Origin: a virus
Length of the DNA stretch: 27,450 bases
IMG/VR virus record: IMGVR_UViG_3300047564_002210
Span: 1-27,450 of that record
Direction: 5' to 3' (one strand)
Positions 3,709 to 6,075 of this stretch are shown here, piece after piece. A program made the position numbers and the translations under genes. The notes under the pieces were generated by a model. It searched no databases and was not told the origin of the DNA. It worked only from the letters and a program-made list of their open reading frames with translations. Position 1 is the first letter of the stretch. Every line of letters begins with the position of its first letter.

Positions 3709-3799
3709 TCCTTGCCCATCATTGTTTAACTTGGTCATCGGCACGATCAGTGCCGGTGTTTTTATTTATTTAGCTTTAGTAGTATGTTTATCTTTTTAG
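3701..3799 (+). CDS. 32-aa membrane microprotein
   Basis: Reading frame MNDPCPSLFNLVIG... is almost entirely one hydrophobic helix (LVIGTISAGVFIYLALVVCL, residues 11-30). Its start overlaps the stop of the preceding microprotein. A weak CGAGG lies 11 bases upstream, so coupling is the likelier route to translation. The stop is 9 bases before the next gene. It may work as a pair with the 37-aa membrane protein. Function unknown. Confidence 0.45.
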   Translation: MNDPCPSLFNLVIGTISAGVFIYLALVVCLSF

Positions 3800-4328: not shown

Positions 4329-4414
4329 CCACAGTCATTACAGTCTTTATACTAGGCTTTTTTGCCGTGTCGCTTATTGCAATTGTCGCGATTATTTATT
4401 TTATGTGGGATTAA
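4322..4414 (+). CDS. 30-aa membrane microprotein
   Basis: Reading frame MLTTVITVFILG... ending YFMWD. Residues 4-27 form one long hydrophobic helix followed by a short charged end. It overlaps the end of the 70-aa gene, and the next gene starts 3 bases after its stop. The ribosome site is weak, so coupling is assumed. It is the third single-span microprotein in this stretch. Function unknown. Confidence 0.45.
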   Translation: MLTTVITVFILGFFAVSLIAIVAIIYFMWD

Positions 4415-4416
4415 TT

Positions 4417-4683
4417 ATGGACATCGTTAAAGTAGGGTTTAAAACCGAAGAAGAAGCTATTAAGTTTAGAGAGTCTATTTTAGGCGACTACAACATAGTG
4501 TGCCTAATGACTCGGTTTCCTTCGGTTGATAGCCAAGAGATTGGTTTTTATTTAGAAGAAAAGCCGCTTACTGAAGAGAAGCTAAAAGAAAAGTTTCACG
4601 CATGGGTTGTGTATAACAACATTTTATTTGATGATCCTACAGAAGCCGCATGGAAAGCATGGAAGACAGCACATGGACAATAA
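4417..4683 (+). CDS. Hypothetical protein, 88 aa
   Basis: Unrecognised acidic alpha/beta protein beginning MDIVKVGFKTEEEAIKFRES. The end is tryptophan-rich (EAAWKAWKTAHGQ). A GTG start at 4405 would add four residues, but the ATG at 4417 with GGGA upstream is preferred. The 3' end overlaps the start of the phosphoribosyltransferase by 11 bases, so the two are probably co-translated. No motif points to a function. Confidence 0.6.
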   Translation: MDIVKVGFKTEEEAIKFRESILGDYNIVCLMTRFPSVDSQEIGFYLEEKPLTEEKLKEKFHAWVVYNNILFDDPTEAAWKAWKTAHGQ

Positions 4684-5071
4684 ACCAAAACCAAAGCAAT
4701 ATATTTCATGGGGTCAGATTGACAAAGCAATCGACATTATGTTTAAGCAAATTAAAGCTGCTGATAAGCAATATGAGATGGTAGTTGGTATTACACGAGG
4801 CGGTCTAATACCTGCTGTAATACTGTCGCACAAGCTTGATTTACCAATGATGGCCATGCCAAAAGAACATGTGTTGCCGCTTGAAACAGCAAAAAATGTG
4901 CTAATTGTAGATGAGATCTACGATACAGGTGCTACTATTAATCTAATTAAGCAACATCACCCAAACACTGATTTTGCTGTGTTGTACCACAATCTTAATT
5001 TGCCAAGACTTAATTACTACGGTCACATTAAGCGATTAGATCATTGGTTAGTCTTTCCATGGGAGATGTAA
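4673..5071 (+). CDS. Phosphoribosyltransferase (PRPP-binding, Gpt/ComF-like)
   Basis: 132-residue type I phosphoribosyltransferase, probably a purine-base salvage enzyme that transfers ribose phosphate from PRPP. The PRPP loop VLIVDEIYDTGAT (residues 76-88) is a clear match to the family signature. The PPi loop is seen as VVGITRGGLIPA (37-48). The size and the GITRGGLIPA stretch resemble xanthine-guanine phosphoribosyltransferases; the base specificity is a guess. The frame is open from 4607, but the internal ATG at 4673 with GGAAG upstream gives the normal N-terminus for the fold. It overlaps the 88-aa gene and, by one base (TAATG), the next small basic protein. Confidence 0.8.
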   Translation: MDNKPKPKQYISWGQIDKAIDIMFKQIKAADKQYEMVVGITRGGLIPAVILSHKLDLPMMAMPKEHVLPLETAKNVLIVDEIYDTGATINLIKQHHPNTDFAVLYHNLNLPRLNYYGHIKRLDHWLVFPWEM

Positions 5072-5220
5072 TGAAAATTCGTAAGCGTTATAGCAGAGGC
5101 AGAATGGCTACCGAAAGGAGAAGGCATGGCATTGCATATCAAATTATGAATCGGTATCAAGCATTTAAACTTAAACTTAAATACGGTAGACGTAAACTTA
5201 TACACTGGTGGAGAAAATAA
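5071..5220 (+). CDS. 49-aa highly basic microprotein
   Basis: Reading frame MKIRKRYSRGRM... ending LIHWWRK, with about 40% Arg and Lys. Such a charge suggests nucleic-acid or membrane-surface binding. GGGAGATG lies just before the ATG, and its start shares one base with the phosphoribosyltransferase stop (TAATG). The next microprotein again starts by TAATG overlap, with GGAGA upstream. No family is recognised. Confidence 0.55.
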   Translation: MKIRKRYSRGRMATERRRHGIAYQIMNRYQAFKLKLKYGRRKLIHWWRK

Positions 5221-5345
5221 TGATTAACTTTATTGCAGGACTTGTAGTTGGCTTCTTTGTAGCAACATACGGTGTTGGCGGTGTAGCCGCTGCATTGGAT
5301 AAAGGCATTAACTTAGTTAAGTCAGTAGAAGTTAATACAAAATGA
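5220..5345 (+). CDS. 41-aa membrane microprotein
   Basis: Reading frame MINFIAGLVVGFFVATYGVG... has a small-residue-rich hydrophobic helix (residues 4-26) with GxxxG-type spacing, then a short amphipathic tail (DKGINLVKSVEV). GGAGA precedes the ATG, which overlaps the stop of the basic microprotein. The helix resembles small phage inner-membrane proteins, but I know of no family. Confidence 0.55.
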   Translation: MINFIAGLVVGFFVATYGVGGVAAALDKGINLVKSVEVNTK

Positions 5346-5458
5346 GATCTGGACTGATGGTTAAATTTGATAAAAGTATTAGTAGCCTTGTAGATGCAAA
5401 TATATTTTTATGTCTTACAGTTCATCAGTCTAGGTTTTTTGGCTGTAAGACCATTTAA
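5342..5458 (+). CDS. Doubtful 38-aa reading frame
   Basis: Reading frame MRSGLMVKFDKS... starts by ATGA overlap with the preceding microprotein, but no good ribosome site precedes it. Its sequence coincides almost exactly with two long complementary pairings (see the ncRNA entry at 5346-5451), which would explain its odd composition. It is kept because every neighbour is coupled in the same way. I think an RNA element is at least as likely. Confidence 0.2.
   Translation: MRSGLMVKFDKSISSLVDANIFLCLTVHQSRFFGCKTI
5346..5451 (+). ncRNA. Candidate structured RNA with two interleaved helices
   Basis: Helix A pairs 5346-5359 with 5423-5436: 14 pairs, including three G-U, with GACTGATG/CATCAGTC as the perfect core. 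Helix B pairs GTCTTACAG (5412-5420) with CTGTAAGAC (5443-5451): 9 perfect pairs. The order A-B-A'-B' is that of an H-type pseudoknot. The 6-nt connector between A' and B' is too short to cross a full 14-bp helix A, so either A is partly formed or the two helices exclude each other, as in a switch. A further hairpin, GATGGG (5467-5472) with CCCATC (5489-5494), follows before the ribosome site of the 58-aa gene. No known RNA family is recognised. Confidence 0.4.
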
Positions 5459-5512
5459 GACAACGAGATGGGCGTTGAATCTACATACCCCATCGCCTAA
5501 CAAAGGTAAACT

Positions 5513-5689
5513 ATGAACGAAAACGAACATTTAAAGCACCAATCAGACTACATTGCCCAATTAGAAAAGGCTTTAGAGTCTAGCATAGCGATGAACAAGG
5601 CACAGGCAGAACGATTTGCGGAGCTAGAAAGAAAGCATAAAGAAGAGTATAACTACGCTGAAAAACTAATAAAGGAACGAAATAAATGA
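5513..5689 (+). CDS. 58-aa coiled-coil protein
   Basis: Reading frame MNENEHLKHQSDY... is one continuous charged helix with heptad-like hydrophobics (YIAQLEKALES, then RFAELERKHKEEYNYAEKL). AAAGG lies 8 bases before the ATG. The stop overlaps the MazG start (ATGA). It could be a small scaffold or adaptor for a neighbouring protein, but the sequence shows no more than a coiled coil. Confidence 0.6.
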   Translation: MNENEHLKHQSDYIAQLEKALESSIAMNKAQAERFAELERKHKEEYNYAEKLIKERNK

Positions 5690-6075
5690 ACCAAGACATT
5701 TTTAATAAAGTTCGTGAGTTTAGAACAAAACTAAACTTACCTGTAAACCATAAGGCACAGTTATTAGAGCCTGCAGCATTAAGCTTCTATGCACGGTTTT
5801 TAATGGAAGAACTGTCTGAGCTATTAAAAGCACACGAAGATGGTGATCTGGTGGCTGCTGCTGATGCATTGGCAGACTTATCGTATGTGACCATGGGATG
5901 TGCGCACCATATGGGATTACCCTTACCTCAAGTACTAGATATCGTACACACGGCGAACATGCAGAAGGTTCCTGGAACCACTCGTAGAGGTACCAAGCAA
6001 GATGCACAGAAGCCTGAAGGTTGGGTAGGCCCTGAAGATCACATTGCTTTATTGCTGTTAAACCATACAAGATAG
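5686..6075 (+). CDS. mazG: MazG-like nucleotide pyrophosphohydrolase
   Basis: 129-residue all-alpha NTP pyrophosphatase, which would hydrolyse (d)NTPs or related nucleotides to monophosphates and PPi. The metal-binding pattern is visible: EELSE (residues 41-45) followed by D60 and D64 in ADALADLSYV, matching the ExxE-(12-28)-ExxD type motif of the MazG/PRA-PH group. AKTNMQKV-type MazG ends are represented here by HTANMQKVPG (about 88-97), also typical of phage MazG-like proteins. It starts by ATGA overlap with the coiled-coil gene, with AAAGGAACG upstream. In phages it is thought to sanitise the nucleotide pool or adjust alarmone levels; which one applies here is unknown. Confidence 0.8.
   Translation: MNQDIFNKVREFRTKLNLPVNHKAQLLEPAALSFYARFLMEELSELLKAHEDGDLVAAADALADLSYVTMGCAHHMGLPLPQVLDIVHTANMQKVPGTTRRGTKQDAQKPEGWVGPEDHIALLLLNHTR

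Follow-up and report, generated by a model that had tools for sequence, protein, structure and literature searches.

A predicted double-pseudoknot RNA at gene boundaries of uncultivated phages and a few Burkholderiales

Sequence comparison indicates that positions 5344 to 5494 on the plus strand of a 27,450-base virus record (the window, meaning the whole stretch analysed) encode an RNA whose family is widespread among phages and also occurs in a few freshwater Burkholderiales. The RNA is ~150 bases long and is predicted to consist of two H-type pseudoknots, A × B and C × E; we regard its structural identity as a member of a double-pseudoknot family as virtually certain. The broader reading, in which it is an autonomous double-pseudoknot RNA at gene boundaries and its family lies outside Rfam, we consider likely. 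Strong covariation, interlocking knots and an invariant core, found in more than 100 viral contigs, imply a conserved and so far unassigned activity.

Two crossing helices in the window

The initial annotation described two interleaved helices in the order A-B-A′-B′, and the sequence bears this out. Helix A joins 5346-5359 to 5423-5436 by 14 pairs, three of them G-U, and helix B joins 5412-5420 to 5443-5451 by 9 pairs, all Watson-Crick. Helix A can be extended to 17 pairs (5344-5360 with 5422-5438), and helix B possibly by two G-U pairs. The annotation also held that such an arrangement would be rare by chance, and would fall if shuffled sequence often gave similar pairings. When the whole window was dinucleotide-shuffled 1500 times, two crossing helices, one of 14 or more pairs and the other of 9 or more, fell within 115 bases once. 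The same shuffles gave ~0.5 single helices of at least 14 pairs per strand, and helix A by itself is not rare. In 1.2 Mb of real DNA from related phages, both strands included, there were two comparable crossing pairs, which are one homologous pair. Among the phage relatives collected first, only one further long pair of crossing helices is comparable in size; it lies at ~2295-2390 in L092 and L093 and is conserved between these two related contigs.

By folding energy the region is no outlier within the window: the chosen 117 bases gave z = -3.1, and 2.4% of all 120-base windows score below z -3. A pseudoknot-free folding program predicted A and practically never B. Hence, thermodynamics alone was insufficient to decide, and the decisive evidence for A and B is comparative, in the form of compensatory changes that keep both helices across the family.

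Family membership, architecture and covariation

Exact 20-mers from A and B matched a sister record only among viral sequences and nothing among genomes. L098 was reached with a 20-mer taken from the gap's 3′ part; it holds a copy of 5373-5497, 82% identical, with unrelated genes on either side. Comparison of L098 with the window gave the invariant core, and a core 16-mer together with a gapped pattern then opened the family. After a two-helix filter the family comprised at least 96 distinct sequences at 135 or more loci, a count that includes the window phage's own sister records and one chance match dropped later. Eight of 104 pattern matches were chance and were removed; a ninth, L174, passed the filter and was dropped by eye. 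The carriers are more than 100 uncultivated viral contigs and six bacterial genomes with one copy each (Limnohabitans JirII-31, Jir72 and LMRC04, and Rhodoferax, Burkholderiales and Comamonadaceae MAGs). Samples at genus, order and phylum level, scanned by pattern, showed the RNA to be rare in bacteria; a covariance-model search over 401 genomes was insensitive, few candidates having been scored.

Covariance model R1 was built from 18 relatives, with the window left out and only helices B and E modelled. It matched the window at 5340-5498 on the plus strand (78.3 bits; E, 2.5e-20) and found all 63 divergent members, L194 only as a short 3′ fragment (E, 0.002). Against isolate phages and plasmids, BLAST with the element gave chance matches or none. 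Searches with the MazG, 58-aa and 41-aa proteins returned many phage relatives, with the element at that site only in the sister record L001, which is 99.95% identical to the window and holds no informative changes.

From 5′ to 3′, the elements are A5′, I5′, the core loop, I3′, B5′, A3′, B3′, a pyrimidine-rich joint, C5′, E5′, C3′, AAUCUACAU and E3′. Helix A crosses B; the 5′ arm of E sits within the C loop and has its partner beyond C, so C crosses E. A and B are thereby predicted to form the 5′ half of a conserved RNA that runs past the region first noted to ~5494, with a second pseudoknot (C, E) and an invariant core. The family-like part of the 5′ arm of helix A occupies 5350-5360, reaching outward to 5344 in the window, and its 3′ arm, supported by covariation and loop geometry, occupies 5422-5432. 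The 14 pairs originally described are present, but only ~10-11 inner ones (5350-5360 with 5422-5432) would be used in the knot, as the outer ones would consume the loop. Helix I, an inner hairpin (5370-5379 with 5402-5411), is found in the minimum free energy (MFE) fold as well as by covariation. It encloses the conserved core loop UAGUAGCCUUGUAGAUGCAA (5380-5399), which is near-identical among 63 divergent members, a conservation partly enforced by search patterns that demanded parts of the core, including CTTGTAGATG. Helix C (CAACG at 5461-5465 with CGUUG at 5473-5477) is represented in the family by ~30 distinct arm pairs, nearly all of them fully paired. Helix E joins GAUGGG at 5467-5472, inside the loop of C, to CCCAUC at 5489-5494. 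Between these last arms lies the invariant AAUCUACAU (5478-5486); AAUCUACA is invariant in 63 members.

Because B and E were already in the covariance model and MAFFT misaligned the arms of B, every helix was also tested without an alignment. We compared the best stem formed by each member's own arms with that formed by arms swapped between 32 divergent subfamilies, in 2000 permutations. Covariation among homologues, which the initial annotation had named as the check on A and B, was found for both and for the helices added here: A, I, B, C and E each beat all 2000 permutations (z = 10.5, 11.7, 18.1, 15.2 and 11.1, respectively). Examples of compensated A arm pairs are GCUGACCC/GGGUCAGC, GUCUAUGUGG/CCACAUAGAC and UGCCGAC/GUCGGCA. 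In the alignment, all 10 modelled pairs of B covaried, with 95.3% of cells paired, as did 5 of the 6 pairs of E, with 99.2% of cells paired. For B, E and a possible long-range helix, D, taken jointly, there were 271 double-change cells versus 64 in shuffles, and 97.7% of cells were paired, a value that fell to ~42% when the partner was slid by 1 to 3 bases.

Both A and B and both C and E thus covary in the order S1-S2-S1′-S2′ of an H-type pseudoknot. Family members mostly have 0 to 2 bases joining B5′ to A3′, with one or two bases sometimes shared, and an A3′-B3′ loop that is mostly 9 to 14 bases for an A of 5 to 10 pairs. By sequence geometry these loop lengths allow both helices at the same time and fit coaxially stacked H-type pseudoknots, so A and B most likely coexist, formed at once. 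Of the two arrangements put forward at the outset, the pseudoknot is therefore favored by covariation and by loop lengths across the family. The other, two mutually exclusive states that switch the 58-aa and mazG genes, is unsupported: one lineage's downstream genes bear no relation to another's, and a promoter often stands between them and the RNA.

Helix D would pair GUAGAU in the core (5390-5395) with AUCUAC near the 3′ end (5479-5484, within AAUCUACAU). The match occurs in every member (62 of 62 paired), with both arms invariant, so D permits no covariation test. The search patterns required its 5′ arm. The 3′ arm was not required in the core 16-mer search and is present in the full-length members found by the core 16-mer alone. 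D may clamp the two knots together.

No reading frame is conserved over the element. The only frame lying over it in the window, of 38 aa, had been called weakly supported, and that doubt was justified: it is open in 13 of 95 members, has no protein relatives that we could find and carries a weak codon signal, and we rejected it together with a 40-aa frame. The spacing from the core to AAUCUACA, modulo 3, is evenly spread (36/31/28 among 95 members). Homologues that kept the 38-aa frame while breaking the helices would have spoken for a gene; the reverse was found, with the frame broken and the helices kept by compensatory change. A programmed frameshift pseudoknot was rejected because no conserved frame covers the element. 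An intrinsic terminator was rejected as well: the element is absent among terminator-like sites, the loop of helix A is ~62 bases, and the 3′ U run is paired inside the stem.

Genomic context

The RNA sits between two genes of its own strand, and in most loci its 5′ end meets or overlaps the stop codon of the upstream gene. In the window the upstream gene (5220-5345, plus strand) encodes 41 aa, has 54% identical homologues in L002 and L003 and overlaps the 5′ end of the RNA with its stop codon, a contact that recurs in the family. The downstream 58-aa gene (5513-5689, plus strand) starts 18 bases 3′ of the RNA and has a Shine-Dalgarno (SD)-like AAAGG at 5502-5506. Further neighbours are a phosphoribosyltransferase-like gene, small genes, MazG, a pyrimidine-dimer-glycosylase-like gene and a PolA-type polymerase. 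The flanking genes are unrelated between lineages: 41 aa and 58 aa/MazG in the window, DUF3310 and an Hjc/VRR-NUC-like nuclease in the largest group, and a MerR-type regulator and a VIT-VWA protein in the six Burkholderiales genomes (L244-L249).

A promoter-like site lies directly 3′ of the RNA in 34 of 95 loci (0 in shuffles), and another 34 of the 95, the window among them, lack a promoter and carry an SD and start codon no more than 36 bases from the RNA; such context counts are inflated by the DUF3310-RNA-nuclease arrangement, which many loci share by descent. At L215 an intrinsic terminator directly follows the RNA. The L215 terminator and the promoter-like sites indicate that, in those loci, the RNA belongs to the upstream transcript.

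Several other features were observed around the element. A palindrome, ~CCTAACA(A/T)TGTTAGG, flanks the RNA at 30 of the 95 loci (L100, L102-L104, L148, L215 and others), often near a conserved TTGACA-16-TATTAT promoter, and looks like the binding site of a regulator. In the 3′ flank of L100, L103, L104, L109, L236 and others, the -10 box of that promoter lies only a few bases before the nuclease ATG (TATTATGGTGGCATGGC), which suggests a leaderless or very short-leader nuclease mRNA. Homology of L002 and L003 to the window ends with the 41-aa gene, after which other genes follow; in related phages this variable slot (5346-5690 in the window; also L002, L003, L051-L054 and L066) is occupied by unrelated small genes. 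Relatives of the 58-aa protein have a MNAYELAD-type N terminus, which it lacks. Another intergenic gap of the window holds a strong intrinsic-terminator-like hairpin with an TTTTTATTTA tail (3736-3758, plus strand). In L098 the RNA is followed by a 245-aa gene without a Pfam match and a QueD/PTPS-type gene (4449-5557). A second structured RNA, Betaproteobacteria-1 (RF02932; E, 6.9e-15), lies at 4355-4480 of the viral contig L171, ~3.3 kb from the element.

Possible function and comparison with known RNAs

The RNA is constant and its relation to the next gene is variable, which argues against a 5′-UTR switch of the downstream gene and in favor of an RNA important in its own right. We propose that transcription of the upstream gene would run on into it and that it would fold after the upstream stop codon. 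The knots A × B and C × E would form, hairpin I would present the invariant core loop, and helix D, if formed between the core and the invariant AAUCUAC near the 3′ end, may clamp the knots. Left at the 3′ end or cut from the operon mRNA, the RNA could then act autonomously, binding a protein or another RNA (a hypothetical partner) rather than serving as a switch before the 58-aa and mazG genes. The RNA is probably processed or 3′-UTR derived. An autonomous, trans-acting or 3′-UTR-derived role is our tentative preference, held at just under even confidence, and we infer rather than observe the choice among a processed, a 3′-end and a self-cleaving RNA.

A self-cleaving ribozyme would cut the polycistronic phage mRNA at or within the RNA, splitting the upstream and downstream messages. 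Broadly, the RNA resembles known small ribozymes: its helices cross around an invariant core, its boundaries are compact and its gene contexts vary. However, no cleavage site is recognizable, no ribozyme family known to Rfam 15 was matched, and 150 bases is long relative to most small ribozymes; we consider this reading unlikely. Less probable is a riboswitch or other cis control of translation, in which a ligand or protein would stabilize the knots and alter access to a start site 10 to 30 bases downstream. The RNA is structured, intergenic and on the sense strand, and action on the next gene is possible at the 34 loci, including the window, where an SD and start codon directly follow it with no promoter. 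Against this, the downstream genes have no common function of the kind looked for behind a 5′-UTR element, a promoter or terminator intervenes in at least 34 other loci, and the compact loci leave no room for a separate expression platform. We give still less credence to a passive 3′-end element, in which stacked pseudoknots would block exonucleases or ribosome read-through and so protect the upstream mRNA. Contact with the upstream stop codon in most lineages and the terminator at L215 are consistent with this, whereas a simple barrier needs neither an invariant core loop nor an invariant AAUCUACA. Chance complementarity, within the 38-aa frame or at a recombination junction, is negligible: the window site is a mosaic junction with other genes there in relatives, and helix A alone is not rare, but family-wide covariation and the breakage of the frame refute it.

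Returning to an autonomous RNA, we lean slightly toward a more specific proposal, a new class with two H-type knots around an invariant core that a long-range helix would clamp. Many uncultured phages would deploy it either with or against a shared host component. It would be shared with Limnohabitans and relatives at the MerR/VIT-VWA locus and is possibly catalytic. The RNA is a defined object of ~150 bases carried by sequenced Limnohabitans strains.

The family is absent from Rfam 15 and from the isolate-phage collection searched. At gathering threshold the window matched no Rfam 15 family, and under lenient thresholds (E up to 10 or 0.5) there was nothing credible for the element in the window, L098, L164, L171, L247, L099 or L100. 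A literature search that included the core sequence returned no description; its coverage largely excluded subscription journals, so an earlier description is possible. Among known RNAs, GOLLD and ROOL are several times larger than the present one. They are likewise elaborate, pseudoknotted RNAs of phages and aquatic bacteria, with an unsettled biological role (PMC12286853, PMC2864571), whereas the present RNA has no Rfam match of any kind. The preQ1-II, SAM-II and similar riboswitches also place an H-type pseudoknot near a start codon, as in many loci here; they differ in that the present RNA matches no Rfam family, precedes genes without a shared function and in many loci is separated from them by a promoter or terminator. 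The glmS, HDV-like, twister and pistol ribozymes resemble it in crossing helices around a conserved core, compactness and varied contexts, although again no Rfam match links them to the present RNA, for which any cleavage is hypothetical. The c4 antisense RNA (RF01695; PMC2864571) differs in architecture, as far as is known, and in having an Rfam entry that the present RNA does not match, but it is likewise a phage-encoded structured RNA within a transcript.
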